From: Agathobacter sp.
Lineage (GTDB): Bacteria > Bacillota > Clostridia > Lachnospirales > Lachnospiraceae
Length of the DNA stretch: 64,000 nt
NCBI GenBank assembly: GCA_022775045.1
Contig: JALFLB010000012.1
Coordinates: 1 to 64,000 of the forward strand
Reading direction: 5' to 3'
Positions 27,843-44,606 of the stretch are shown one piece after another (the stretch's first letter is position 1; the number at the start of each line of letters is the position of its first letter). Both the position numbers and the translations under genes were made by a program. The notes beneath the pieces are model-generated. The model did not search any database. It saw only the letters and a program-made list of their open reading frames with translations, and had not been told where the DNA came from.

Positions 27843-27946
27843 CAAGTTTATAATGTTTCTTCTGCATAAAGAACTCAAAGTGATTTAGGGTGCGGATGGG
27901 GCAAATTGACGAAAACAATTCGTAAATGAAGGAGAGGAAGAATATC

Positions 27947-30900
27947 GTGGGAGAGAGAAAAAGAGAACCAATTAGAAAACGGCTGCTGAGCCTGTTGATG
28001 GCGTTTGCAATGGTGTTGACATCGCTGGCGGTGACACCGGTGACGGCGAAAGCGGCGGACTCTGTAAAATTGTACTTTGAGCTGCCGGAAGGCACAAGCG
28101 TAACGGATTGGTGCGTAAATGTCTGGGCTCCAGCGGAGAGTTCGGTGCTGGTAACAGAGGGGGATTCTGAAAATGCATTTCGTCCTTCTTCATGGGGAGC
28201 TGGATCAATATTTCCGACGTTGCTTGCAGATACAAACTTGTCTGGATGGGGATATGTTAAAGTATCTGGAACAGTGGACGGTTTGCAGTTTGTTAACAAG
28301 GACGGCAGCAAGGAGTTCAAGTGCTGGAATGCACAGATCACTAAGAATGGATGCACAGAGGCATATTTTTCTTCGAGTGATGGGAAGTGGTATACTACCG
28401 CTGAAAAAACCACGGAGATAAAAGAACCGGAGATTCAGAATATTTTTGTATTGGCTGGAGAGGCTGGATTGGCAGGAAGCAACTGGAATCATAAGGATAT
28501 GAAGAATCAGTTAAAGCAAGACTCCACTGATCCGAATAAGTTCAGCATTACCTATCAAAATGTTCAGGCAGGCACATACGAATATAAAATTCTGCAGGAT
28601 CCGGAGAATAAAGGTTGGGATTTACCATGGGGAAGTGGATCTGGCAGTGGAGGAAATCGTAAGGTTACAGTAGACGCACCATCAGATGTGACCTTCGCGA
28701 TTGATTTAAATGATCCAAATAAGAATGTTGTAGATCAGGGTGTAAATGTAACTAAAAAACTCTGTCAGACCTTTGTTATTAATAATCCAGCTAATATTGT
28801 CAAGGGAAAAGCGACAGAATTAACTACCTCTGCAGAATATTATGATGGCAGTTCTGCTACACCATCTACTGTTGCTGTTTCCTATGCATTGAAGGGTTCA
28901 CCAGAGGATGTTACATTAACGGGTAATAGTATTACGGTAGCAAAGACATCAACTCGGACAGGGGTTACTGTAATTGCGTCATATGGTGATTTCAAACAGG
29001 ATATTACGATTCCTGTTGTTGATAAGCAGTATACGGTAACAATTAATATGTACTCCCAGGATCTGGAAATGAAGCCGGGGGTGTCCGACGTTTATATCTT
29101 TGAAAATGGCGGAAATCGTAACACTGTCGTTAAGTTAGATACAACCGTAGTAGACGAACAAAATGGTGTCACATGGGTACAGGGTACCACAACGGTTCCG
29201 TACAATTCTCTTGGTATTATTGCCAGAGATGTAGCAGGATCATGGGATGGTGGACAGGATAAGCCAAACCGGTATTATGTGATTGACGAGGAATTAGAAG
29301 AGGTTACCTTATGGTATGAGTATGGTAAGACTCCTACCACAGAAAAGCCAACCATTACTAAGGCGGAACCGAGATATTTTTATCTGGAATATGAGAATCC
29401 GACCCTTGCGGCTGGTGTAACACCACAGTTTTATTCATGGACAACCGGCTATGCGGCAAAAAGAATTGATTTTGAAGCAAATGGTACTGGCAAGTGGATC
29501 GTAAAGGTTCCGGTTAAGCCAACCTGTGCAAAGGTAGATTTTGTCGTTGTATTAGATGCAACAGGGGATCCATGGGTGAAGGATGGTGGAGACCATTCCA
29601 TTTCATTCCCGTTAGACCAGACTGTTGTATGTGCAAGCATTAAAACCGGTGAGGAGCCAAAGCTCAGCGCACCATACAATATTGGATATGAATTACAGCC
29701 AAAGAAAGATCAAATTTCTTTCTACTATCGCGATGATAAGGCACTGATTGAGGGAAAATTAGCTGAATTACAGGTGGCTGTTGAAATCAACGGAACAGAG
29801 CAGCCAATGACTTATAGCGAGAGCAATAAGCGTTTCGAGTATGTCTCCAAAGGATTACAGGATGGACGTATTGATTATCGCTATAAGGTGGGATCGGAAT
29901 ACGTATTGGATAAATACAATCCAAATAAGGAAGTAAAGAATGAGGTAACCTACTCCTATGTGGATTATTACAAGCTGAATGCGACAATTTCAGCAGAAGT
30001 AATGAATCCATCCTTTAACTATAATGAAAACAATGTTGTAAAATTTAAAGTAAATCAGGCTAAGACTGATAAGCAGAAACTGGATGTAGCATCTGCATCT
30101 ATTGATGTTTCTTCTTTAGGCGGCAGCAGTGCACTGGCTATTCAGCCGGAATTACAGGCGGTTACCATTTCCGTAACACAGGATACTGCATTAGGAACTA
30201 AGACATTACCAATCGTGGTAACAGACCAGTACGGGAATGAGTATCATACAACCGTTGATGTGAATGTTGTGGCACGTACAAAGACCTCTGCAGATGATTT
30301 CGACTGGGATGAGGCAGTTATCTACTTTATGGTAACTGACCGTTTCTTTGATGGAAATGAGACAAACAATACTGCAAGTGGTGCAAACACCTATGGTCAG
30401 AATCCGGGATTGTATCATGGAGGAGATTTTGCCGGACTTACTCAGAAGCTGGATTATCTGGATGAGTTAGGAATCAATACCGTTTGGATTACACCAATCG
30501 TGGAAAATATACCTGGTGTTAAGGTAACAGGTACGGGCAGTGCAGATGTTCCGTATAATGCCGCTTTCCACGGCTACTGGGCAAGTGATTTTACAAAGCT
30601 AAATCCGACCCTTGGTACAGAGGAAGAATTTAGAACCTTGATTAGTGAAGCTCATAAGCGTGGCATTAAGATTATGGTTGATATTGTAGTGAATCATGCC
30701 GGATATGGAACAGAAGCTGATTTCAACAAAGTTTTAGATGGTAAAGATATGATTCGTTCCGGATCGGATATTGTTTCCGGAGATGATCAGAAGGATTCCT
30801 TATCTAACTTACCGGATTTTAAGACAGAGGATCCGGCAGTAAGTGCACAGCTGGTAAAATGGCAGACACAGTGGGTAAAGGATTACGGTATCGACTATTT

Positions 30901-32623
30901 CCGTGTAGATACTGTAAAACACGTAGAAAATGCAACCTGGGCAGAGCTAAAAAATTCTCTGACAGAGGTTGATCCGGAATTTAAGATGATCGGTGAGTAT
31001 GCCGGTGGTGGATATGCTGGAAATGGTGGCACATTGGGAACCGGTCAAATGGATTCGGATCTGGATTTCGATTTTAACGATCAGGCAACAAGTTTTGTCA
31101 GCGGTAATATTTCATCAGTAGAAAGCTTTTTGGCATCTAGAAATGCAGCCTTGAATAATACTTATATGACTGGTCAGTTCCTGGGAAGTCATGATGAAGA
31201 TGGTTTCAAGCAGAATTTGATTTCGAACAAGAAAATGTCAGAGGAAGCAGCAACAGCAGCTTCACTGGTTGCAGCAACCTTACAGATTACTGCAAAAGGT
31301 CAGCCGGTCATTTATTACGGAGAAGAAATTGGGTTGACTGGATTAAATAATTATCCATATCAGACAAACCGTTATGATTTTGACTGGTCATTAGTAAATG
31401 AGAATAATGTAACTTATATACATTATAAGAAGATGCTTGCAATCCGAAATAAGTATACAGATGTATTTGCGAGAGGGAACCGAAAAACAGTAGCAGTATC
31501 GGATGAAAAGGGATATGACGTTGTTTCCAGAAGTTATGGTGGAACCACACTTTATGTTGGAATGAACATTAAGTCTCAGGCACAGACCGTAACGATTCCG
31601 GTTAGCGCAAATTCTGGTACTATTATGACGGACCTGTATTCAGGAAAGGTTTATACCGTAAGTAACGGAACCGTTAAGGTAACGATACCATCAGCAGCAG
31701 AGGGGGGCACAGTAATTTTAAAGAAAGGAAGCGCTTCTTCCGGCGGTGGTTCAACAACTCCGACAAAGCCAGATACACCTTCCAAACCAGCTGATACAAA
31801 TGTGACAACAAATCCGGATGGAACGAAAACTGAGGTAAAGACAGAAATCGTAAAGAATGAATCCGGGAAAGAAGTGACTGTGACCACTACAGTAGAAAAG
31901 GATGCGCAGGGCAATGTCACCGGCAGCAAGGAAGTTTCTGTGATTGCAGAAGTATCGAAAAACACTTCTGCAACCGTAACCGTTCAGAAGGATGCCACAG
32001 GTAAGGTGACAAGTGCAACTGCAGAACTAACAACAACCGGAAAGGGTGGAAAGAAAAGTGTGACAGGAACGATTTCAGGTGCTGTTGTTGGTCAGATCAG
32101 TGATGCAGCTGGAACGAAGGATGTGGAGATTTCTGTGACGGTAACCGATGGAAAGAAATCGTACACAGTAAAAGCAGATGCCGAGGATCTTACAGCAGGT
32201 ACAAAACTTAAGGTTGTCGCAATCGATCCTAAGACACAAAAATATGTTTTAGTCAACGCGAAAACCTATAAAGTGGGTAAGAATGGAGATGTCAAAGTAT
32301 CTCTTCCGGGCGGCGAAACTTACCAGTTGATGGATACCAAAGAGGCTGCAGCAGTTGAAAAAGAAATATACAGAACCATTACGGTGAAAGCTTCTTCTGC
32401 AACGGTAAAGAAGGGTAAGAGTACAAAGGTTGAGATGAGCAGTAAATTAGATATGGATAACGTATCTAAGATTACTTATACATCGAGTAAGAAGTCTGTA
32501 GCAACAGTAAGTAAGACAGGAAAAATCACGACTAAAAAGGCGGGAACTGTTACGGTTAAGGCGAAGGTTACTTTGAAGAATGGGAAGACCAAGACAGTCA
32601 GCATGAAGATTAAAGTGAAATAA
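27947..32623 (+). CDS. Large secreted GH13 alpha-amylase/pullulanase-type enzyme with starch-binding modules
   Basis: A 1558-residue exoenzyme. A basic N-terminus and signal peptide (about 14-37, ending AKAA), a starch-binding-like module, an X25-type module (about 170-235, LAGSNWNHKDMKNQLKQDS...), a further carbohydrate-binding-like module (about 365-450) and an E-set domain precede the GH13 barrel (about 785-1140). Catalytic regions: DIVVNH (about 911), FRVDTVKH with nucleophile D988, GEYAGG with acid/base E1017, and GSHDED with D1083. Domain C, a Ser/Thr/Pro linker and repetitive beta domains lead to a C-terminal Big2-like domain. Degrades starch or pullulan outside the cell. GTG at 27947 is favoured (AAGGAGAGG upstream); an ATG at 27926 has no ribosome site. 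No sortase motif. Confidence 0.88.
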   Translation: MGERKREPIRKRLLSLLMAFAMVLTSLAVTPVTAKAADSVKLYFELPEGTSVTDWCVNVWAPAESSVLVTEGDSENAFRPSSWGAGSIFPTLLADTNLSGWGYVKVSGTVDGLQFVNKDGSKEFKCWNAQITKNGCTEAYFSSSDGKWYTTAEKTTEIKEPEIQNIFVLAGEAGLAGSNWNHKDMKNQLKQDSTDPNKFSITYQNVQAGTYEYKILQDPENKGWDLPWGSGSGSGGNRKVTVDAPSDVTFAIDLNDPNKNVVDQGVNVTKKLCQTFVINNPANIVKGKATELTTSAEYYDGSSATPSTVAVSYALKGSPEDVTLTGNSITVAKTSTRTGVTVIASYGDFKQDITIPVVDKQYTVTINMYSQDLEMKPGVSDVYIFENGGNRNTVVKLDTTVVDEQNGVTWVQGTTTVPYNSLGIIARDVAGSWDGGQDKPNRYYVIDEELEEVTLWYEYGKTPTTEKPTITKAEPRYFYLEYENPTLAAGVTPQFYSWTTGYAAKRIDFEANGTGKWIVKVPVKPTCAKVDFVVVLDATGDPWVKDGGDHSISFPLDQTVVCASIKTGEEPKLSAPYNIGYELQPKKDQISFYYRDDKALIEGKLAELQVAVEINGTEQPMTYSESNKRFEYVSKGLQDGRIDYRYKVGSEYVLDKYNPNKEVKNEVTYSYVDYYKLNATISAEVMNPSFNYNENNVVKFKVNQAKTDKQKLDVASASIDVSSLGGSSALAIQPELQAVTISVTQDTALGTKTLPIVVTDQYGNEYHTTVDVNVVARTKTSADDFDWDEAVIYFMVTDRFFDGNETNNTASGANTYGQNPGLYHGGDFAGLTQKLDYLDELGINTVWITPIVENIPGVKVTGTGSADVPYNAAFHGYWASDFTKLNPTLGTEEEFRTLISEAHKRGIKIMVDIVVNHAGYGTEADFNKVLDGKDMIRSGSDIVSGDDQKDSLSNLPDFKTEDPAVSAQLVKWQTQWVKDYGIDYFRVDTVKHVENATWAELKNSLTEVDPEFKMIGEYAGGGYAGNGGTLGTGQMDSDLDFDFNDQATSFVSGNISSVESFLASRNAALNNTYMTGQFLGSHDEDGFKQNLISNKKMSEEAATAASLVAATLQITAKGQPVIYYGEEIGLTGLNNYPYQTNRYDFDWSLVNENNVTYIHYKKMLAIRNKYTDVFARGNRKTVAVSDEKGYDVVSRSYGGTTLYVGMNIKSQAQTVTIPVSANSGTIMTDLYSGKVYTVSNGTVKVTIPSAAEGGTVILKKGSASSGGGSTTPTKPDTPSKPADTNVTTNPDGTKTEVKTEIVKNESGKEVTVTTTVEKDAQGNVTGSKEVSVIAEVSKNTSATVTVQKDATGKVTSATAELTTTGKGGKKSVTGTISGAVVGQISDAAGTKDVEISVTVTDGKKSYTVKADAEDLTAGTKLKVVAIDPKTQKYVLVNAKTYKVGKNGDVKVSLPGGETYQLMDTKEAAAVEKEIYRTITVKASSATVKKGKSTKVEMSSKLDMDNVSKITYTSSKKSVATVSKTGKITTKKAGTVTVKAKVTLKNGKTKTVSMKIKVK

Positions 32624-32669: not shown

Positions 32670-33833
32670 TTACAGCATATCCAGCAGCATAAACCCCACA
32701 CTCAGCTGCAGACGGTTGTTCAGTTGTGAGAGGTCCATGTCGAGAAGTTCCGAAATCTTATTCAGCTTGTAGTTGATGGTATTGCGGTGCACATAAAGCT
32801 CATCGGCGGTCTCCTTGACACTGCCGTTGTGGTTTAAGTAGCAGCGCAGCACGACTGCAAGATCCGAATCATTCTTCTGATCATAGTCCAGAAGAGGACG
32901 AATCGTTTTATCGTAATATTCTAAAATAATCTCTTTGTCCTCGATTCCCATGAGCAGTTTGTAAATCCCCATATCAGAATAAAAGACAAGAGAAGGGTCG
33001 ATTTTAGCATTTTCCTGAAGCTTTTGGATTGACTTTGCCTGATGATAGCTTTTATAGACACAGCGGACACTTTTGGTCAGCTTGCCACAGCCCATGGTAA
33101 TGGTTTCGCCATTGGCAAGATAGGAAAGCGTATGTGAACGGATTTCGTCGATGAAACTGCGAAGCTGCTCATCAGATTCAGCAGCAGTTACCACCAGAAT
33201 TTCTGTGTCGTGGGAAAAAACAGCACAGTTTTCATATTTATGCCGGACAAAAGTGCCAATGCTTGCGGTGAGCTGGTCCAACCGTGAGGAAAGAGCAGAA
33301 GAACTGTGCTGAATTTGGAGGATGCAGACGGAATACTTCCAGTTTACGCGAAACCCCTGTTGCGAGAGAGGAACAACATACAATTCTTCCTGTTTTGGGA
33401 AAAAGATGGCGTTTTTAAAAGCGGCGGCAGTTTCGAGAGTTCGCTGGTCGTCCTTGGTGATGGCGAAGCAGAAAATGCGCATTACTTCTGCAAGATGGAT
33501 TTTCCAGGGAATGACGAAAAGAGGAAACTCTTTCTCGTTACAGAAATCCGTGACCTCCTGAGGGATGGACTCGATAAAGGGACCGATATTTACAATCATA
33601 CCGGCGGCATTTTTCTTATAAATGCATTCTGCCAGTGAAAGCAAGGTGATACGGTTGCTAATTCCAAGTCCGGTTACAAAGGCAATCTCGCCGCCTTGCA
33701 GAAAGTCAGAAGCTTCTGTCGTCTCCACCATATGTACCCAGCTTACCAGATTGTGCATGCCGTCTTCTCCGGCAATGAGCGTTACATCCATATGAGCTAC
33801 CTTTTCAATTAATCTCTGTAATTCGACTGCCAT
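32670..33833 (-). CDS. PucR-family transcriptional regulator of the pyrimidine island
   Basis: A 387-residue regulator. The N-terminal PucR domain (PF07905, about 1-120: VAHMDVTLIAGEDGMHNLVSWVHMVETTEASDFLQGGEIAFVTG) senses a purine- or pyrimidine-related ligand in relatives, and the C-terminal HTH_30 (PF13556, about 325-380: LNHNGSVKETADELYVHRNTINYKLNKI) binds DNA. It is divergent from the aminotransferase gene. GGGAGA is six bases before the ATG. Its own transcript is predicted to begin with a terminator-like hairpin (33923-33883). I infer that it binds the 16-bp palindromes at 33976 and 36603 and activates both operons. Confidence 0.85.
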   Translation of the reverse strand: MAVELQRLIEKVAHMDVTLIAGEDGMHNLVSWVHMVETTEASDFLQGGEIAFVTGLGISNRITLLSLAECIYKKNAAGMIVNIGPFIESIPQEVTDFCNEKEFPLFVIPWKIHLAEVMRIFCFAITKDDQRTLETAAAFKNAIFFPKQEELYVVPLSQQGFRVNWKYSVCILQIQHSSSALSSRLDQLTASIGTFVRHKYENCAVFSHDTEILVVTAAESDEQLRSFIDEIRSHTLSYLANGETITMGCGKLTKSVRCVYKSYHQAKSIQKLQENAKIDPSLVFYSDMGIYKLLMGIEDKEIILEYYDKTIRPLLDYDQKNDSDLAVVLRCYLNHNGSVKETADELYVHRNTINYKLNKISELLDMDLSQLNNRLQLSVGFMLLDML

Positions 33834-33975: not shown

Positions 33976-33991
33976 TTGTGCCACAGCACAA
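33976..33991 (+). promoter_or_regulatory. Candidate PucR-type operator 1
   Basis: TTGTGCCACAGCACAA: inverted repeats TTGTGC/GCACAA with a four-base centre. The exact reverse complement is at 36603-36618. It ends 21 bp before the -35 box of the aminotransferase promoter, a placement typical of activators. Confidence 0.65.
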
Positions 33992-34012
33992 CCAAGTTTG
34001 GGCCGTGGCTTA

Positions 34013-34040
34013 TTGTTTTGCGCGTTGGCTGGCTTATAAT
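34013..34040 (+). promoter_or_regulatory. Promoter of the aminotransferase/dehydrogenase operon
   Basis: TTGTTT (34013-34018), 16-bp spacer, TATAAT (34035-34040). The -35 is weak, as expected for an activated promoter. Confidence 0.6.
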
Positions 34041-34098
34041 GGGGAATATCAAAATGAGTCGCCCAAAAATACAGGGGCAGGAAAGGAAGGTTATGATT

Positions 34099-35424
34099 AT
34101 GACATCACAGGAAATAAAAGAGAATGCAAAGAAATATGTACTTCAGTCTTGGAGCAAGCAGGGACAACTCAATCCAATTCCGGTGGAAAAGGCAGAAGGA
34201 ATTTATTTTTATGATTATGACGGAAATCGTTATACGGATATGTCTTCCCAGCTGGTAAATTTAAATCTTGGCTTTGGCAATCAGGATATAGCAGAGGCGA
34301 TTAAGAAGCAGGTGGATCAGTATTGTTTCGTCGGACCATCCTATGCGGCTGAGTCGAGGGTGACACTGGCAAAAATGATTGTAGACCTGTTGCCGGATAC
34401 ATTCGGAAAAGTCTTTTTCACAAATGCCGGGGCGGATGCCAATGAGAATGCGATTAAGATTGCGCGGATGTTTACAGGCCGGAAGAAGATCTTCAGCCGT
34501 TACCGCAGCTATCATGGTTCTTCCTTTGGCGCAGGAAACTTAACCGGTGAGCCGAGACGTTATCCATTGGAGCCGGGGATTCCGGGATTTGTAAAGTTTT
34601 TTGATCCATATATTTATCGTGAGCCAATCGAGTTTGCGTCTGAGGAGGAAGCAACAAAGTATTATCTGACCAAGCTTCGTGAGCAGATTATCTATGAGGG
34701 ACCGGATCAGGTTGCTGCAATCGTGATGGAGACCATCACCGGTTCAAACGGAATTATTATTCCACCGAAGGGTTATCTCCCGGGCGTGCGCAAGATTTGT
34801 GATGAGTTTGGAATTGTTATGATCTGTGACGAGGTAATGGCAGGCTGGGGACGTACCGGAAAGATGTTTGCTTTTGAAAACTTTGATGTAACACCGGATA
34901 TTGTGACATTTGCCAAGGGTGTAACCTGTGGTTATGTACAGCTTGGTGGTGTAGCGGTCAGCAGTAAAATTGCATCTTACTTTGATGATCATCTTCTTTC
35001 CTGCGGACTGACCTACAGCGGACACCCACTGGCTTGTGCGGCAGGTGTTGCCTGTGTCAACTACTATTCAAAGGCAAATATTCTGGACAATGTTAACAAG
35101 GTTGGAAAAGTATTAGGTGAAAAGCTGGAGGAGCTGAAAGACACCCATGCCTGTGTCGGAGATGTGCGCTATATTGGTTTGTTCTCCTGTGTGGAGCTGG
35201 TTAAAGATAAAGCAACAAAGGAAGCTTTGGTTTCTTACGGCAGTGATCCACAGGGAATTATGGGAAAGATTGTCGGAATGCTCAAGGAACGCAAATTTAT
35301 GACATACTCTCATGAAAATATGATTTTTGTCTGTCCACCACTTATCATTACAGAAGAGCAGTTGACAGAAGAGCTGACAAAGCTTGATGAAGTGCTAGGA
35401 ATCGTGGATAAAGAGTTTATTTAA
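34099..35424 (+). CDS. Class III aminotransferase, probable beta-alanine transaminase
   Basis: A 441-residue PLP enzyme of fold type I, class III. The PLP lysine is K273 in TFAKGVTCGY; upstream are FTNAGADANENAIKIAR, YRSYHGSS and the Asp of MICDEVMAGWGRTG. Substrate cannot be read from sequence, but its place beside a full reductive pyrimidine pathway and an alcohol dehydrogenase fits beta-alanine to malonate semialdehyde, as reported for PydD2-like enzymes of fermenting Firmicutes. Start: of two close ATGs, 34099 is eight bases after GGAAGG, and 34093 is too close. It is the first gene of a two-gene operon 22 bases from the next. Confidence 0.85.
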   Translation: MTSQEIKENAKKYVLQSWSKQGQLNPIPVEKAEGIYFYDYDGNRYTDMSSQLVNLNLGFGNQDIAEAIKKQVDQYCFVGPSYAAESRVTLAKMIVDLLPDTFGKVFFTNAGADANENAIKIARMFTGRKKIFSRYRSYHGSSFGAGNLTGEPRRYPLEPGIPGFVKFFDPYIYREPIEFASEEEATKYYLTKLREQIIYEGPDQVAAIVMETITGSNGIIIPPKGYLPGVRKICDEFGIVMICDEVMAGWGRTGKMFAFENFDVTPDIVTFAKGVTCGYVQLGGVAVSSKIASYFDDHLLSCGLTYSGHPLACAAGVACVNYYSKANILDNVNKVGKVLGEKLEELKDTHACVGDVRYIGLFSCVELVKDKATKEALVSYGSDPQGIMGKIVGMLKERKFMTYSHENMIFVCPPLIITEEQLTEELTKLDEVLGIVDKEFI

Positions 35425-35446: not shown

Positions 35447-36598
35447 ATGGCGCATTTTGCAATACCATCCCATATTCTGACAGGAAAGGATGCACTGTCT
35501 TCTGCAATACCTTATCTAAAAGAATATGGAAGCCGGGCATTTATTGTTACAGGCAAGCATGTAGGGAAATCCCCAATGCTTGACCAGTTAAAAAAGACAC
35601 TTGAAAAGGCTCAGATTGCCTATTATGTTTTTGACGGTATTACTGGCGAGCCAACCGATCAGATGATCGAGGAAGGCCTGGCACAGTATCGAAAGGCGGG
35701 CTGTCAGTTTGTAATCGGAATTGGCGGTGGAAGTCCGCTTGATTCGGCAAAGGCGATTGCGGCAATGGCGGTTAACGAGGGAAAGATTGCCGACTACAAC
35801 GGAAAAGAGATTACTGGAAAAGTGCCGGGAATTGTCGCAATTCCGACGACCTCCGGGACAGGATCAGAGGCGACGAAATTTACGATCATTACGGATCAGG
35901 AAAAGGATATTAAAATGCTCCTGAAAGGAGATTGCCTGGTTCCGGATCTTGCGATTGTCGACCCGGATTTCACCATGGATATGCCGAAAAGTGTGACGGC
36001 CGCCACTGGATTGGATGCATTGACTCATGCGGTGGAGGCGTACACCTCGAAAAAGGCGTTTGCGCTGACGGATGTTTTTGCGGTTTCCGCGGTGCGGCGG
36101 ATTATGAAGTATCTGCCGGTTGCATATCAGAATGGTTATGACGCAAAGGCCCGTGAGGAAATGTCGCTTGCGGCGCTGGAGGCAGGATTTTGCATTAATA
36201 ATTCCAGTGTAACGCTTGTACATGGCATGAGCCGACCGATTGGGGCACTTTTTCATGTGCCGCACGGGATCAGTAACGCGATGCTTTTAAAGGAGTGTCT
36301 GGGATTTGCGTTGGACGGAGCGTATGACCGCTTTGCAGATCTTGGGCGCGCAATTGGTGCAGCGACAGAGCAGGACAGTGATGAGGACGCTGCAAAGGCA
36401 CTTCTTACAGAGATAGAAAAGCTCTGCAGTATTTGTGAGGTTCCTACACTTCGTGAATATGGTATTAAGGAAGAAGAATTTTTGCCAGTCATCGAAAAGA
36501 TGGCGGAGGATGCAGTTGCATCCGGCAGTCCGGGAAATACAAGAAAGTCTGTGACGAAAGAGGACTGCATGCGGTTGTACCGTAAAATCTACGGATAA
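35447..36598 (+). CDS. Iron-containing alcohol dehydrogenase, probable malonate-semialdehyde reductase
   Basis: A 383-residue group III metal-dependent dehydrogenase. The NAD(P) loop GIGGGSPLDSAKAIA (about 92-106), PTTSGTGSEATKF, and metal ligands from TGLDALTHAVEAY and LVHGMSRPIGALFHVPHG are all present. In this context it would reduce malonate semialdehyde from the preceding aminotransferase to 3-hydroxypropionate, regenerating NAD(P)+ in fermentation. Butanol or 1,3-propanediol dehydrogenases of the same fold are alternatives in other settings. AGGAAAGGAAG precedes the ATG. Confidence 0.85.
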   Translation: MAHFAIPSHILTGKDALSSAIPYLKEYGSRAFIVTGKHVGKSPMLDQLKKTLEKAQIAYYVFDGITGEPTDQMIEEGLAQYRKAGCQFVIGIGGGSPLDSAKAIAAMAVNEGKIADYNGKEITGKVPGIVAIPTTSGTGSEATKFTIITDQEKDIKMLLKGDCLVPDLAIVDPDFTMDMPKSVTAATGLDALTHAVEAYTSKKAFALTDVFAVSAVRRIMKYLPVAYQNGYDAKAREEMSLAALEAGFCINNSSVTLVHGMSRPIGALFHVPHGISNAMLLKECLGFALDGAYDRFADLGRAIGAATEQDSDEDAAKALLTEIEKLCSICEVPTLREYGIKEEEFLPVIEKMAEDAVASGSPGNTRKSVTKEDCMRLYRKIYG

Positions 36599-36756: not shown

Positions 36757-37548
36757 ATGGGTGAATTACAGGAAAGAGAAATTGAAATACAGATCAAAGA
36801 TCTGGGCGTGACCTTTCAGGATAACGCAGGAAACGACGTACAGGCACTGACCGGCGTCAATCTTGACATCTACAAAGGAGAGTTCATTTCACTGCTTGGA
36901 CCTTCCGGATGTGGTAAGACAACATTACTTCGAAGTATTGCAGATCTGCAGGAACCGACAGAGGGAACGGTACGAATTGGAGGAATGACTCCGAAGGAAG
37001 TAAGACTTCAACAGAAATTCGGTTTTGTATTTCAGCAGCCGGTATTATTTGACTGGCGAACCGTTAAGAAAAATGTGGAGCTGCCACTTGAGATTATGTA
37101 CCAGTCCAAAGAGGAGCGCTCCGAGCGGGCAGACAAGATGTTGGAAATGGTAGGATTAAAAGATTTTGCCAATCATTTTCCAAAGCAGTTGAGTGGTGGA
37201 ATGCAGCAAAGAGTAAATATTGCCAGAGCATTTGGAATCCGGCCGGAAATTCTTTTAATGGATGAGCCGTTCTCCGCACTCGATGAGTTTACCAAAGAAA
37301 AGCTTCACGAGGACCTGCTCCGTATCTGGAGAAAGACGAACAAGACAGTTATCTTCGTTACCCATAACATTCAGGAGGCTGTGTTCCTGTCTGACCGGAT
37401 CTGTGTATTATCTCCGCATCCGGGAAGATTATCCGCAGTCGTAGATGTGGATCTTCCAAGACCACGGACGCTGGAGATGAAAGAGACGCAGCACTTTAAC
37501 GAGCTGGTGCTTAAGGTTCGGAACAGCTTTGAAGGGGGCAGTGTTTAA
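36757..37548 (+). CDS. ABC importer ATP-binding protein (NMT1/nitrate-sulfonate type)
   Basis: A 263-residue ATPase with Walker A GPSGCGKTT (about 48-56), Q-loop VFQQPVLFDWRTV, signature LSGGMQQRVNIARA, Walker B ILLMDEPFSALD and H-loop VTHN. The FDWRTV segment and C-terminal RPRTLEMKET are typical of the TauB/SsuB/ThiZ branch. It energises the two permeases downstream for uptake of what is, from context, a pyrimidine base or nucleoside-like compound. Its stop codon overlaps the next start (TAATG). Confidence 0.9.
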   Translation: MGELQEREIEIQIKDLGVTFQDNAGNDVQALTGVNLDIYKGEFISLLGPSGCGKTTLLRSIADLQEPTEGTVRIGGMTPKEVRLQQKFGFVFQQPVLFDWRTVKKNVELPLEIMYQSKEERSERADKMLEMVGLKDFANHFPKQLSGGMQQRVNIARAFGIRPEILLMDEPFSALDEFTKEKLHEDLLRIWRKTNKTVIFVTHNIQEAVFLSDRICVLSPHPGRLSAVVDVDLPRPRTLEMKETQHFNELVLKVRNSFEGGSV

Positions 37549-38387
37549 TGAAGAGAATAAATAAAATTTTTGATAAAAAATGGGCATCAACAGTTCTTTG
37601 GATTCTCCTGCTTGTTGCAGCATGGGAGATTGGAGCATTTGTTGTTTCCATAACAAAGAGATCTCCGGAAAATATATTGCCGCATTTATACCAGATTATC
37701 GCGGCTGCATTTTCTACAAATAAGGTTTCTTCTGGTATGACGGCAACCATGGTGGTTTTGACGAGCGCGAGGGCAACAATCTTAAGAGCACTGCTTGGAT
37801 TTGCACTTGGAACAGCGGCAGGTTTTTTGCTGGCACTCCTGATGAAGCTGTCAGGAATCTGTGAGAAAATGCTTTTCCCATACCTGATGCTGATTCAGCT
37901 GATTCCGGTGCTGGGACTTGCACCGATCATCCTGTCCATTACAGGAGATATCAATAAAAGTCGTATTATTATCGCAGCAATCTTAAGCTTCTATCCGGTT
38001 GCGACCAATACACTGGCCGGCTTTAAGTCAGTGGATAAGGATAAATATGATCTGATGTATACCTACGCGGCAAAGAAGCACACCATTTATACGAAAGTGC
38101 TGATTCCTTCCGCAATCCCGTACTTTTTTACGGGAACAAAGATTGCGGCGCCAATGGCAATTACGGCATCGATTCTGGTGGATACATTGCAGGGCGATGG
38201 CGGGCTGGGTTGTATGCTTTCCCAGTCTTTGAAACATGCGATGTCGATATACGTATTCTGGCTGATCGTTTTCTTCAGTGCCTTTGTCGGTATTTTCAGC
38301 AGCTACCTGATGAATTGGATTGAGGCCTTGGTATCACCGGAAAAACGCGGAATGCGAAAAGCAAAAAAGATGAAGGGAGGAAACTAG
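37548..38387 (+). CDS. ABC importer permease 1
   Basis: A 279-residue permease of the BPD_transp_1 type with six predicted helices and an EAA-like loop (MYTYAAKKHTIYTKVLIPSAIPYFFTGTKIA). It starts one base inside the stop codon of the ATPase gene. It is a paralogue of the next gene, with the same length, so the importer channel is likely a heterodimer. Confidence 0.88.
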   Translation: MKRINKIFDKKWASTVLWILLLVAAWEIGAFVVSITKRSPENILPHLYQIIAAAFSTNKVSSGMTATMVVLTSARATILRALLGFALGTAAGFLLALLMKLSGICEKMLFPYLMLIQLIPVLGLAPIILSITGDINKSRIIIAAILSFYPVATNTLAGFKSVDKDKYDLMYTYAAKKHTIYTKVLIPSAIPYFFTGTKIAAPMAITASILVDTLQGDGGLGCMLSQSLKHAMSIYVFWLIVFFSAFVGIFSSYLMNWIEALVSPEKRGMRKAKKMKGGN

Positions 38388-38388
38388 T

Positions 38389-39228
38389 ATGGCGCAGAAA
38401 AGAAAGAGACCAAAAAGCCTGTATCGGAGAATGCAGGAAAACGCAAAAGTGCAGGCAGCGGCGACCATTATTCTGCCGGTTCTTTTAGGAATTATAATCT
38501 TAGTACTCTGGCAGACACAGGTACTCCATCACTGGTTTAAGACGGATACCTTTACCCTCCCGCTTCTGGGCAGAATAAAAACAATTTTTATGGAAAATAT
38601 CGGGAAGATCTGGGAGAACGTGGTGGCGACAATGATCGTTGCGCTGGTCGGTTTGGCAATCGGAAGTCTGCTTGGATATGGAGTAGCTATTCTGGCGGCA
38701 CTTTTCCCAAGGGCTGGAAGGGGCGGACTCAGCGTGATTGGCGCATTTGCTTCAATCCCGGTTGTTGCGCTGGCACCGGTTATGAACAATTGGACCAAGG
38801 ATGTATCGAATGATGCAAGCACACGAAGCATGGTGGCAAAAATTCTGGTAGTCATGCTGATCGCTGCGGCGAATATGAGTCTGAATGCCTATCGAGGACT
38901 GACAGAATTAAAACCATATGCAAAGGATCTGATGGCGACCTACGCAGCCAAAAAGCGCACAACACTTTTGAAGCTCCAGTTGCCGAATTCGGTACCATAC
39001 ATATTTGTAGCACTTAAAGTATCAGTACCTGCAAGCATTATGACAGCAATCGTAAGTGAATATTTTGCGGAATACATCATTGGTGTCGGCAGGCAGATTC
39101 GTGAGAACATTGTGCTGGCACAGTATCCAACCGCCTGGGCATACATTGCAACGGCGTGTCTTCTCGGCATCGTTTCATATGTGGTGCTGATGATTGTACA
39201 GAGTATACTTCTCCGGCGATACCATTAA
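38389..39228 (+). CDS. ABC importer permease 2
   Basis: A 279-residue permease with a basic N-terminal tail (KRKRPKSLYRRMQENAKVQ), about six helices and the EAA-like loop DLMATYAAKKRTTLLKLQLPNSVPYIFVALK. The gene follows permease 1 by one base. Together with permease 1 it forms the membrane part of the NMT1-type importer. Confidence 0.88.
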   Translation: MAQKRKRPKSLYRRMQENAKVQAAATIILPVLLGIIILVLWQTQVLHHWFKTDTFTLPLLGRIKTIFMENIGKIWENVVATMIVALVGLAIGSLLGYGVAILAALFPRAGRGGLSVIGAFASIPVVALAPVMNNWTKDVSNDASTRSMVAKILVVMLIAAANMSLNAYRGLTELKPYAKDLMATYAAKKRTTLLKLQLPNSVPYIFVALKVSVPASIMTAIVSEYFAEYIIGVGRQIRENIVLAQYPTAWAYIATACLLGIVSYVVLMIVQSILLRRYH

Positions 39229-39273: not shown

Positions 39274-40416
39274 ATGAAGAAGAGAACATTAAAACTAATG
39301 AGTATGTCCCTTGCGGCAGTAATGACATTTGCAATGATGGCAGGATGCGGTTCCTCATCCGGGGAAGCAAAAAGTGATACACCGGCGGGAACACAGAGTG
39401 CGGCGGACACATCAGCAGTGATGAGTAATGAAGAGATTATTAAGAAGGCAGCCGGTGAAGGAAAGGTCAGCAACTGGGGAATTGGAAATGAATACGAAAT
39501 TCTTGCCTTGCTGGCAAAGTACGGGCTTCCGACAGAGTATTTAAGTGAGGACTTCACCATGGATGCATTTGATGATGATTCCAGTACACTTGCGTCCGCA
39601 ATGACTTACAACGAGCTCGGTCTGGTAAAGAATGACTACGATGGTGGATACGGCTACGGCGATACAGTTGGATACATTGATATGAACGATGAGGGCGTTG
39701 CGATGCTCGAGGACAACATTTTCTGTAAAAAGAGCTTTGCAGCAGAAAATCCGGAGACCGTAAAGGCGTTCCTATATGCATCCTTAAAGGGTTGGGAGTA
39801 TGCGGTTGCAAATCCGGAAGAGGCAGCACAGATCGTATATGAGGCAGGTTCTTCTGTATCCCAGGATCATCAGTCCTACATGGCATCTGAGGTAGCAAAG
39901 CTTGTTTCTACGGATATGAACGGCAATACGGTAACTGAGGTTGGTAAGATTGATGATGAGGCTATGCAGCAGACACTGGATATCGCAAAGCAGTATGTGA
40001 CATTGGATGATTCCGCAGCACAGGATGCTTTTTCAAAGTTGACGCTGGATGATATCCGCGATACCAGTTTTTATGAGGCTGCAGCAGGTTCTTCTGACGG
40101 CAAGTTCAATGTGGAGAAGAGCGAAGTATCTATCCAGCTTAAATGGCTGCCACAGGCACAGTTCATGGGCTACTATGTAGCAGATGCCAAGGGTTACTAT
40201 GATGAGGTTGGTCTGAAGGTTAACATTGTATCCGGTGGTGGTGATATCTCTGAGACAACAGCCGTAAATAACGGAACTGTTGACTTTGGTGTTACATGGC
40301 CTACAAACATGGCAGTTGCAGATGCCGGTGGAATGGATCTGGTTGAGGTCGCTCAGATTTATCAGAGATCCGGTATGACCTTAGTATATAAGTATGACAA
40401 CTTCAAAGCGGAATAG
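39274..40416 (+). CDS. NMT1/THI5-type substrate-binding lipoprotein, circularly permuted
   Basis: A 380-residue lipoprotein: signal peptide with lipobox MAGC (Cys25), then a Ser/Thr-rich spacer. Residues 65-270 (NWGIGNEYEILALLAKYGL... SAMTYNELGLV... LEDNIF... LKGWEYAVANPEEA...) correspond to what is the second part of ordinary NMT1/THI5-like proteins. Residues 284-377 (VSIQLKWLPQAQFMGYYVADAKGYY... GVTWPTNMAVA... AQIYQRSGMTLVYK) correspond to their normal N-terminal part. The order is therefore swapped, with the break in the hinge linker. It should bind the imported pyrimidine-like substrate. AGGAGGAAAA precedes the ATG. Confidence 0.85.
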   Translation: MKKRTLKLMSMSLAAVMTFAMMAGCGSSSGEAKSDTPAGTQSAADTSAVMSNEEIIKKAAGEGKVSNWGIGNEYEILALLAKYGLPTEYLSEDFTMDAFDDDSSTLASAMTYNELGLVKNDYDGGYGYGDTVGYIDMNDEGVAMLEDNIFCKKSFAAENPETVKAFLYASLKGWEYAVANPEEAAQIVYEAGSSVSQDHQSYMASEVAKLVSTDMNGNTVTEVGKIDDEAMQQTLDIAKQYVTLDDSAAQDAFSKLTLDDIRDTSFYEAAAGSSDGKFNVEKSEVSIQLKWLPQAQFMGYYVADAKGYYDEVGLKVNIVSGGGDISETTAVNNGTVDFGVTWPTNMAVADAGGMDLVEVAQIYQRSGMTLVYKYDNFKAE

Positions 40417-40430
40417 GAGATGAAGGAAGT

Positions 40431-41795
40431 ATGGAATTACTGATTAAAGGAGGAACCGTTGTCACCGCGACAGAGAGCTTTGTGTCTGATGTTGCAGTGG
40501 ACGGTGGAAAAATTGTAGCAATTGGAAAGAATCTTCCGTTTAGCGCGGATCAGGTTGTAGATGCGACAGGCAAGCTTGTGCTGCCTGGCGCACTCGATGC
40601 CCACACACACATGGCGATGCCGTTTGGTGGAACTGTTTCGGCAGACAGTTATCTGTCCGGAACAAGAGCGGCCGTGTGTGGTGGCGTTACCACCATTTTT
40701 GATTATCCGGTACAGCACAAGGGAGAGACGATTCTGGGACTGGTGAATTCCAAGAAAGAGATTCTGGAAAAAGATGCATGTTGTGATTATGCATTTCACT
40801 GCTGTATCACCGATCTTAATGATGGAGAGATTTTAGATGAGATGGAGCAGGCAGTGGCAGAAGGAATTACAAGCTTCAAGTGCTTTCTGGTTTATAAAAA
40901 GGAAGGCATGATGGTTGATGACGGAATGCTTGCAAGACTTCTTCTTCGCGCCAAAGAACTCGGTGCCATGATCAATGTTCACGCAGAGAATCCGGATTTA
41001 ATCGATCTCCGTACAGAGCAGTACTTAAAAGAGGGCAAAACTTCTGCATGGTATCACTATATGAGTCGACCGGAGTTTGTTGAAGCAGAGGCTGACAAGC
41101 GTGTTGTTCACTGGGCAAGCCATCTGGATACACCGGTTTACCTCGTACATATGGCAGATAAGGAAGGCTTGGAGGCCTGCATTAAGGCGAAGGAAGAAGG
41201 ACATGAGATCCTGATCGAGACATGTCCGCAGTATCTTGAATTTACCTGCGATGTATATAAGCGGGAGGACGGCCGCAATTTCGTCTGCTCACCTCCAATG
41301 AAGGGGCAGGAGAGCCAGGACGCATTGTGGACTGCGCTGAAGGCAGGTTTCATTGATACTGTGGCAACAGATCACTGTCCATTCCAAAGTTATGAAAAGG
41401 ATTGGGGTAAGGATGACTTTACTAAGATTCCGAACGGCTGTGCCGGTGTCGAAAACCTGTATCCATATATGCTGGATGCAGCAAATGCCGGTAAGCTTTC
41501 CTTTGAGCGTGTGGTAGAGGTATGTTCGACCAATGTGGCAAAAATTTTCGGCTGTGAAAACAAAGGTGCAATTGCAGTCGGAAAAGATGCGGACATTGTC
41601 ATCTACGATAAGGATAAGGATTTCACCATCAGTGTGGATAATATGCATTCCGATTACGATCATACAATCTGGGAGGGCAAGAAGCTGCATGGTTATCCGG
41701 TACAGACATATCTTCGTGGCAAGCTGGTTTACGATAACGGAGACTATGTCGGAACCCCGGGCATGGGCAGCTATGTAAAGAGAAGTCATAGATAA
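40431..41795 (+). CDS. hydA: Dihydropyrimidinase
   Basis: A 454-residue cyclic amidohydrolase opening dihydrouracil to N-carbamoyl-beta-alanine. Metal and active-site motifs: [12 protein letters not shown] (about 55-66), the carboxylated lysine K150 in [23 protein letters not shown] and VATDHCPF. Length and motifs match dihydropyrimidinase/hydantoinase rather than allantoinase or dihydroorotase. It follows the binding protein by 14 bases with AAGGAAG as ribosome site, and is followed by PreA, which makes its substrate. Confidence 0.93.
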
Positions 41796-41811: not shown

Positions 41812-43302
41812 ATGGCATATGAACAGATAAAAAGGAAGAGTGAGACGGGCAGATGCCTTTTGTGTCAGGATGCTCCCTGCAGCAGCTGCTGTCCCAAAGG
41901 ACTTGCGGTGGCAGATATTGTCCGCTCACTTCGCTTCGAAAATATAAAAGGAGCAGCAAGAAAATTAGGTGAAAGTAATCCGTGTGAGGGTTGCAGTGCA
42001 CTGTGCGTCGATGCCTGCACCCGCAGCCGGATTGACAGGGAAATTGATATTCCGATGTTGTTTTCCGGCATAGCAGAAAACGTGCCTCAGGAAAACAAAG
42101 CAGATTTGTCCATTGATTTCTGTGGTGTACACTGTGAAAATCCATTTTTCCTTTCATCCTCTGTGGTGGGAAGTAATTATGAGATGGTGGCGAAGGCCTT
42201 TGATCTTGGATGGGCAGGTGTTGCGTTTAAAACGATTGGCCTGTTTGTTCCGGATGAGGTGTCACCGCGGTTTGCAGCTCTCGAAAAGGAGGACAATCCA
42301 TTTGTCGGCTTTAAGAATATCGAACAGATTTCCGACCATACGTTAGAAGAAAATCTTGGATATTTGCGGAAGCTCAAAGAGAACTACCCGACAAAGGTCA
42401 TCATTGCTTCTATTATGGGGCAGAATGAGACAGAGTGGACAAAACTCGCAAGTTTGATGGAAGAAGCAGGAGCGGATATCATTGAGTGCAATTTCTCATG
42501 TCCGCAGATGGTTGGTGAAGGATTGGGAAGCGATGTCGGAACGAATCCGGAGCTTGTTGCAAGATATACAGCGGCAACCAGAAGGGGGACGAAGCTTCCG
42601 ATTTTAGCAAAAATGACACCGAATATCACCCGCATGGAGATACCGGCGCACGCGGCTATTCAGGCAGGAGCGGATGGACTGGCAGCAATCAACACCATTA
42701 AGAGTGTGATGAATATTGATCTGGAATCCTTTGCATCGGCGCCAGATGTAGATGGAAAGTCGGCGGTTGGCGGTTATTCAGGAAAAGCAGTTAAACCGAT
42801 TGCGTTGCGTTTTATCCATGATCTGAAAAAGGATGCAAGGCTTCGGAATGTGCCCGTCAGTGGCATGGGCGGCATCGAGACATGGAGAGATGCTGCAGAG
42901 TTTATGGCACTTGGCTGTGAGACGGTACAGGTGACAACCAGTGTCATGCAGTATGGCTATCGCATTATTGAGGATATGATCGAAGGAATGAGCGATTATC
43001 TGACAAGTATCGGTGCACATTCCATTCGTGAGATTGTCGGAAAGGCATTGCCGAATGTGGTGCCGGCAGAGGATGTGAACCGGCATAGTATTGAGTATCC
43101 GCGTTTTAACCGTAGCAGCTGTGTTGGCTGTGGAAGATGCTATCTCTCCTGTTTTGACGGCGGGCATCAGGCACTTCGTATGGATGAGAACAGGCAGCCG
43201 GTCATGGATCCGAAAAAGTGCGTAGGTTGTCAGCTATGTAAGCTGGTTTGTCCGACGGGGTCGATTACCGCCGGGACACGTGTGGATAAAAAGATTTCAT
43301 AA
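41812..43302 (+). CDS. preA: Dihydropyrimidine dehydrogenase PreA with extra N-terminal Fe-S domain
   Basis: A 496-residue enzyme reducing uracil/thymine. The N-terminus (1-80) carries two cysteine clusters (C15, C18, C23, C27 and C58, C61, C65, C69), like the Fe-S domain that in E. coli is part of PreT. Then comes the FMN barrel (about 100-420) with the catalytic Cys230 in NFSC and [13 protein letters not shown]. The C-terminal 2[4Fe-4S] ferredoxin domain (about 435-485) has [11 protein letters not shown] and [12 protein letters not shown]. No PreT-like flavin/NAD(P)H domain is fused or adjacent, so electrons may come from ferredoxin or another donor. Confidence 0.88.
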
Positions 43303-43343
43303 TCACATATATAAAATAAATTTTAAAAAGGAAGGTGCAGATT

Positions 43344-44606
43344 ATGTATACATGCAGTTTGGAACGAATGACAGACAAGATTAAAACATTTTCAAAGTTT
43401 GGAGATGCCGGACATGGCGGAATTACCCGTTACTCTCTTTCTCCAGAGGCAATTATGGCAAGAAATGAATTTAAAAAGCGTATGGAGGCAATCGGAGCAA
43501 CAATCGAAATTGACGATGTTGCCAATATGTACGCAACGCTTCCGGGAAGCGATCCGGATGCAAAGAGAATTGTGATGGCGTCTCACTGTGATTCCGTAAA
43601 AAATGGCGGAAATTATGATGGAATCTTAGGTGTCATGTCTGCGATGGAGGTACTTGAGACCGTTGCGGAGAACAACATTCCGCATAAGCATCCTCTTACA
43701 GCGATGATCTGGACAAATGAGGAAGGTTCTCTCTATCCACCGGCAATGATGTGTTCCGGAATTGTGTGCTACGATTATCTGCCGGAAGATATCCGCAGCA
43801 AGTTCAAGTATGAAGACATGATGAATTCGAAGAGCATTCTTGACAATACAAGCACTTTCGGCGAGGCGCTGGAAAAATCCGGGTTCAAAGGAGATAAGAA
43901 GTATCGTCTCTCTCCGGAAAATTATGAGTATTACTTTGAGACACATATCGAGCAGGGCCCAATCCTTGAGGATGCGGGAAATGATATCGGTGTCGTTGAC
44001 TGTGTACTCGGTATGTTTAATTACCGCCTGAAATTCTATGGACAGACCACCCATGCGGGAACTTTCCCGATGCCAAAGAGAAAGGATGCATTTTTAGCTG
44101 CATCACAGGCACTTTGTTATCTCCATGAAGAGATTGACAAGCTGGGATACCCGGAACTTGTATATACAACAGGCGAGGTGGTATGCCATCCATGTGTACA
44201 TACCTGTGTACCGGATTTCTTTGATTTTTCATTTGATGCAAGACATGAGGATCCGAAGGTACTTGAGCAGGTTCTTGAAATTGTAAAGAGTTGTGCAGAC
44301 AGAACCTGGGCAGGCTGTACCTGCGAAGTCGTAAAGGCTTGGAACCGCGATACCGTATACTGGGATAAGAAGCTGGTCGGATTTGTCAAGGAGGCAGCGG
44401 AAGAGCTTGGCGTATCGCACCAGTATATTCATTCCGGGGCCGGACATGACGCACAGTTTGCCGCATACATGCTCCCGGCAACAATGATTTTCGTACAGTC
44501 CAAGGATGGATTATCCCACTGTGAACCAGAGTATTCTTCACCAGAGCACTGTACGGAGGGCGCATCCGTTATGCTGAATGCCGTGCTCAAGGCAGACGCA
44601 CAGTAA
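43344..44606 (+). CDS. M20-family N-carbamoyl-amino-acid hydrolase, probable beta-ureidopropionase
   Basis: A 420-residue dizinc amidohydrolase of the M20/ArgE type: ASHCDSV (zinc His/Asp), GGNYDGILGV, WTNEEGS (catalytic Glu pair), ETHIEQGPILE, HAGTFPM and HSGAGHDA. This is the allantoate amidohydrolase/carbamoylase branch; with dihydropyrimidinase beside it the likely reaction is N-carbamoyl-beta-alanine to beta-alanine, CO2 and ammonia. ATG at 43344 is preferred over an in-frame GTG that lies within the AAGGAAGG site. Confidence 0.88.
   Translation: MYTCSLERMTDKIKTFSKFGDAGHGGITRYSLSPEAIMARNEFKKRMEAIGATIEIDDVANMYATLPGSDPDAKRIVMASHCDSVKNGGNYDGILGVMSAMEVLETVAENNIPHKHPLTAMIWTNEEGSLYPPAMMCSGIVCYDYLPEDIRSKFKYEDMMNSKSILDNTSTFGEALEKSGFKGDKKYRLSPENYEYYFETHIEQGPILEDAGNDIGVVDCVLGMFNYRLKFYGQTTHAGTFPMPKRKDAFLAASQALCYLHEEIDKLGYPELVYTTGEVVCHPCVHTCVPDFFDFSFDARHEDPKVLEQVLEIVKSCADRTWAGCTCEVVKAWNRDTVYWDKKLVGFVKEAAEELGVSHQYIHSGAGHDAQFAAYMLPATMIFVQSKDGLSHCEPEYSSPEHCTEGASVMLNAVLKADAQ

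Follow-up and report, generated by a model that had tools for sequence, protein, structure and literature searches.

A 64,000-nucleotide stretch of the genome of Agathobacter sp. (hereafter the window) encodes a substrate-binding lipoprotein that is homologous to the NMT1/THI5-like (Type II) proteins, but in which the two canonical parts of that family follow each other in the reverse order. We consider it very likely that this protein is a natural circular permutant of the family, and that it serves an ATP-binding cassette (ABC) importer which brings in a pyrimidine base or dihydropyrimidine destined for reductive breakdown.

The family profile, PF09084, matched the whole protein in two stretches with 107.9 bits against a curated cut-off of 20.5 (Pfam scan), and was its only Pfam match above cut-off; the homology is therefore clear, but the collinear profile order is not kept. 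When the halves were scanned apart, residues 60–276 aligned to profile positions 157–216 and residues 277–380 to positions 2–82, whereas the canonical relative L111 gave one collinear match across positions 2–216. A search with the same profile over the window's genome, a draft of 60 contigs that is 90% complete, returned profile positions 146–216 at 39598–39825 of the window and 2–82 at 40156–40398, and no second NMT1 match, canonical copies included, at E ≤ 0.001. In two sequence searches of the PDB, the start of chain 4nmy matched the end of the window protein and its end matched the protein's middle; 3ix1 displayed a swap of this kind more weakly. Apart from 3qsl, a putative exported protein, the PDB matches were all NMT1/THI5-like. 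Because the profile stretches and the 4nmy and 3ix1 matches are all swapped, we regard the order as real, and the protein, judged by its sequence, is to be filed as a circular permutant of the PF09084 family rather than as an ordinary member. An earlier reading of the DNA, made from the sequence alone, had assigned the normally second part to residues 65–270 and the normally first part to residues 284–377, behind an intact lipoprotein signal. This sequence-only reading was borne out: no single collinear match was obtained, both boundaries are correct to within a few residues, residues 60–276 correspond to the family's C-terminal part rather than its N-terminal one, and a lipobox-like AGC ending at Cys25 stands ahead of the swapped parts.

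We scanned contigs for relatives, found 109, and kept the best 80 loci, which displayed 58–92% identity in the best segment. At 79 of these 80 loci, the order was swapped and both parts shared a single frame; at the remaining locus, L101, the contig ends before the second part. Permuted loci were present in Catenibacillus scindens DSM 106146, in Ruminococcus bromii ATCC 27255 and in Anaerocolumna sp. AGMB13025, the last on a complete chromosome. Most belonged to Clostridia (Lachnospiraceae, Oscillospiraceae and others), together with nine spirochaete loci and one Acholeplasmatales bin containing two copies. The same order script read the window locus and the loci of seven relatives (L001–L008, partly the same records) as permuted and L009 and L010 as canonical; this internal control indicates that it can detect both orders.

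The position of the break was mapped using six permuted and six canonical proteins (36 pairs), in which the canonical protein was rotated through every position; three shuffles per pair at every tenth rotation were used as controls. All 36 pairs aligned with a higher score after rotation, and in every pair the best rotations (within 2 points) fell in one linker of ∼15 residues, bounded by a strand ending in LLVSK or similar and a strand KVGSW or similar. For the window protein and L111, for example, the local score was 375 without rotation and 593 with it, 137 of the 288 residues being identical (48%), and the maximum score of the shuffled controls across all 36 pairs was 56. No remnant of a signal peptide was seen in the joining linker of ∼11 residues (273–283), and AlphaFold2 produced a confident two-part model of the window protein (predicted local distance difference test, 86.7; predicted template modeling score, 0.84). 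The earlier proposal that the break falls in the hinge linker between the lobes needs one refinement: the order of elements would place the break not in the hinge itself but past the strand that first crosses between the lobes and ahead of the initial strand of lobe 2. This lobe assignment draws on element order, DSSP and the general Type II topology, rather than on coordinates.

The permuted sequences formed a single clade, a point that the sequence-only reading had proposed to check, in a tree that sampled alternate permuted rows (41 of 82) and took in the full set of 12 canonical ones (Shimodaira–Hasegawa-like approximate likelihood ratio test/ultrafast bootstrap, 100/100). The 82 permuted rows include at least two duplicated records (L114 = L069 and L133 = L060) and two rows from one genome (L105 and L109), and the incomplete L101 was dropped; a further set, A1, consisted of the window protein plus 59 loci that we selected from the 80. 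Each half alone again split permuted from canonical sequences (0.998 and 1.0). The ratio of non-synonymous to synonymous substitution rates (dN/dS), a rough measure here because four of the five pairs compared had a dS above 1, was 0.04–0.12 for the whole gene and 0.008–0.093 for the moved last part, and such low values indicate strong selection on the re-threaded protein. One pair gave a value as high as 0.54 for the signal region, and three sub-region values were not computable.

As to how the permuted order arose, we infer a duplication, fusion and deletion in one ancestor, in which the old C-terminus would have been joined to the old N-terminus by the linker of ∼11 residues, and the chain would have been opened past the first strand to cross between the lobes, ahead of the first strand of lobe 2. 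The fold, with its two lobes and binding cleft, would be retained, the lipid anchor would now pull on lobe 2 instead of lobe 1, and the permuted protein would be expected to close on its ligand and pass it to the two permeases. It could be argued that the gene is instead a mosaic, whose C-terminal part was acquired by fusion from a different binding-protein gene. In line with this, the mean identity to the 12 canonical relatives is unequal between the halves (36–55% for half A and 31–45% for half B), and in single-half trees half A attaches tentatively beside L164–L168 and half B beside a larger canonical set. However, both halves match the same small canonical group, one break linker is found, and after rotation the complementarity with L111 is near-complete; furthermore, half A is also more conserved than half B within the permuted clade (80.5% versus 72.9% in sampled pairs). 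We therefore consider a mosaic origin unlikely, and prefer permutation of the gene within itself.

The binding-protein gene lies directly downstream of genes for an ATPase and two permeases (Table 1). In the stretches fetched around the 80 loci, homologues of permease A and permease B were each found at 79, of the ATPase at 75, of the dihydropyrimidinase at 74 and of PreA at 72. Five of the six loci without a dihydropyrimidinase homologue end close to the gene, and the sixth, L073, does not. Because the neighbours comprise an ABC importer, a dihydropyrimidinase, PreA and a carbamoylase-family amidase, the likeliest role, in view of the known pathway, is to take up a pyrimidine base or dihydropyrimidine that is then broken down reductively. 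Proteins of the same fold can have other functions, and the PDB matches include the enzymes THI5 and THI13; the permuted protein might accordingly have lost transport and become a sensor or an enzyme of the THI5 type. The near-constant company of importer genes argues against this possibility, as does the tree of permease A, which splits in the same manner as the binding protein (78 permuted and 11 canonical, FastTree support 0.891), and we consider a loss of transport very improbable. Trees of the ATPase, PreA and dihydropyrimidinase displayed no separation of permuted from canonical operons, so the genes of the operon have histories that are partly separate. The canonical loci L111, L112 and L129 adjoin dihydropyrimidinase and PreA homologues in a manner comparable to permuted loci; among the 12 canonical stretches, a PreA homologue of usable length was present in eight and a dihydropyrimidinase homologue in six.

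Table 1. Features of the permuted binding-protein gene and its neighbours in the window
Feature	Position	Strand	Basis
Circularly permuted NMT1/THI5-like substrate-binding lipoprotein, 380 residues	39274..40416	+	Open reading frame; PF09084 in two swapped stretches
Signal peptide, lipobox-like AGC ending at Cys25	39274..39348	+	Sequence
Canonically second part, now first, residues ∼63–272 (lobe 2, return crossing, helical end of lobe 1)	39460..40089	+	Profile, rotation alignment, model secondary structure; lobe assignment inferred
New linker, residues ∼273–283, old C-terminus to old N-terminus	40090..40122	+	Rotation alignment; coil between helix 265–272 and strand 284–288 in model
Canonically first part, now last, residues 284–375 (start of lobe 1, crossing, strand 368–373)	40123..40398	+	Profile, rotation alignment, model
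PucR-family regulator, divergent	32670..33833	-	PF07905 and PF13556 above cut-offs
Class-III aminotransferase, putative beta-alanine step	33976..35424	+	PF00202; NF004718 ('hypothetical protein') above cut-off
Iron alcohol dehydrogenase-like, putative malonate-semialdehyde step	35447..36598	+	13 NCBIfam matches listed at E ≤ 1e-20, all below cut-offs
ABC transporter ATPase	36757..37548	+	ABC_tran, 4.3e-36
ABC permease A	37548..38387	+	BPD_transp_1, 4.3e-23
ABC permease B	38389..39228	+	BPD_transp_1, 1.9e-14
Dihydropyrimidinase/hydantoinase	40431..41795	+	TIGR02033, 487.7 bits against cut-off 393.25
PreA-type dihydropyrimidine dehydrogenase subunit with extra N-terminal Fer4_20-like stretch	41812..43302	+	NF006183, 579.1 bits against 335; PF14691
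Hydantoinase/carbamoylase-family amidase, putative beta-ureidopropionase	43335..44606	+	TIGR01879, 331 bits against 204; allantoate amidohydrolase model NF006771, 438.9 against 399

Several further observations concern this neighbourhood. The Fer4_20 domain is a domain of PreT, the partner of PreA. In the PreA-type protein of the window it matched residues 4–71, no PreT was seen among the scanned neighbours, and two further Fer4_20 proteins are encoded elsewhere in the genome (C29 and C55). A preTA-hydA arrangement has been described in Anaerostipes hadrus (PMC11036815). At L039 and L069, two consecutive open-reading-frame hits similar to permease B, which may be two genes or one split frame, were found beside the permuted binding protein. 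A cytidylate-kinase-like gene (PF13189, 44821–45447) follows the operon and has homologues in 26 of the 80 fetched stretches, and positions 27926–32623 encode a protein of 1565 residues in which an alpha-amylase domain is combined with a Big_2 domain of the Ig-like type.

We estimated the prevalence of both forms in even draws of genomes, which partly overlap, using the window protein as the query and taking the order from match positions. The order-level draw yielded matches in 17 of 392 genomes, 14 permuted and three canonical (G079, G092 and G1211). The class-level draw yielded 10 of 391, seven with a permuted copy (that of G272 cut at a contig end) and four with a canonical copy, G456 having both. 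At the phylum level, 11 of 398 genomes matched, two with the permuted order, seven with both halves in canonical order and two with one half, and in Spirochaetota the single match among 198 genomes was the centre of the draw itself. The distribution of the gene in these draws is patchy. A first sample of relatives gave matches in 40 of 98 at E ≤ 0.001: eight were permuted and full-length (own genome included), two were canonical with both halves at ∼46–49%, and the remainder consisted of short or weak matches, in many cases to the signal peptide. In the tree, spirochaete rows appeared at several places among Clostridia, which may point to transfer. An artefact of assembly or binning in the window's draft genome can be dismissed as the source of the order, since the same order occurs within one open frame at 79 of the 80 loci from other genomes, isolates and a complete chromosome among them.

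The canonical copy that accompanies the permuted one in G456 belongs to the most distant canonical set (L130–L132), and neither a dihydropyrimidinase nor a PreA homologue was found at E ≤ 1e-8 in the 17 kb around it; we considered this copy as an evolutionary intermediate, which is unlikely on these grounds. The L130–L132 set has GRQYE in place of the GNEYE motif. Judging from the stretch of L132, where no dihydropyrimidinase or PreA homologue was found within 17 kb, the ligand of this set may differ.

The closest known systems are the canonical NMT1/THI5-like Type II lipoproteins (4nmy of Clostridioides difficile, the formylaminopyrimidine-binding protein 3ix1, and L111, L112 and L129), which are homologous to the window protein over both parts; in the window protein, however, the parts are swapped, and the anchor and N-terminus would be on the other lobe. 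OpuAC and ProX, the molybdate-binding proteins and CysB are of the Type II class as well. Among these, natural circular permutation is already in print, between the glycine-betaine-binding OpuAC of Bacillus subtilis and ProX, the molybdate-binding proteins and CysB; any pair in that set has <24% identity and the proteins were linked by structure (PMC2395249), whereas here the full-length identity between permuted and unpermuted forms reaches 48%. OpuAC itself probably belongs to a different sequence family: it gave no match to the window protein in PDB sequence searches (E ≤ 1 or 0.01), and the similarity seen was structural. A second precedent is TpMglB-2 (Tp0684) of Treponema pallidum, proposed as a 'Type Ic' glucose-binding lipoprotein and natural circular permutant; it is likewise a permuted binding lipoprotein and occurs in treponemes and Gram-positive gut bacteria, but it has a Type I fold and another ligand, and its permuted part is 13% identical to the expected EcMglB region (PMC4990184). 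The window protein, with NMT1 as its sole Pfam match above cut-off, lacks the homology to Type I MglB proteins that marks that family. We found no report of a permuted NMT1/THI5-like protein among the matches listed in the open-access literature, outside which most subscription papers lie, and the available portions of PMC2861598, PMC9732360 and PMC3779223 contain no mention of a permuted binding protein.

The authors of the TpMglB-2 report raised a mosaic fusion as one option and membrane tethering as a possible reason for the permutation (PMC4990184). By our script rule, a lipobox-like Cys is present at 74 of the 80 homologous loci and absent from six permuted loci, five of them from spirochaetes (L073, L082, L084, L091 and L092) and one from a Clostridiales bin (L106); these six proteins are probably not lipid-anchored. 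The canonical L111, L112 and L129–L132 also carry a lipobox. The presence of the lipobox in canonical proteins and its absence from six permuted loci appear to weaken tethering as a driver, and the six loci argue that tethering is at least not required to keep the new order. More tentatively, the lobes may have exchanged roles through the permutation while the Type II topology stayed intact: what was lobe 2 would now be the N-terminal lobe that carries the anchor, and the former first crossing strand would end the chain as a free C-terminal strand. If this somewhat doubtful proposal is true, it would be a convergent repeat of the OpuAC/ProX rearrangement at an equivalent position, and the membrane-held lobe and the opening of the hinge would change.

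The protein described here is an independent case of natural permutation, in another family that includes close unpermuted relatives. Collinear annotation can miss proteins of this kind, and no NCBIfam model reached its cut-off on the window protein. In the two printed cases that we found, divergence is too great to isolate the effect of re-threading. Here, both forms survive at up to 48% identity and with comparable neighbours, a single linker holds the break and the permuted proteins form one clade; the effect of chain order on closing and docking, and the question of tethering as a driver, therefore become testable. If the lobe roles were indeed swapped, an unpermuted relative of 48% identity beside the same kinds of genes would provide a natural experiment on chain order with comparatively little other change. 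These results suggest that evolution can re-thread a binding protein into a stable form common to many related bacteria, with its job apparently kept.
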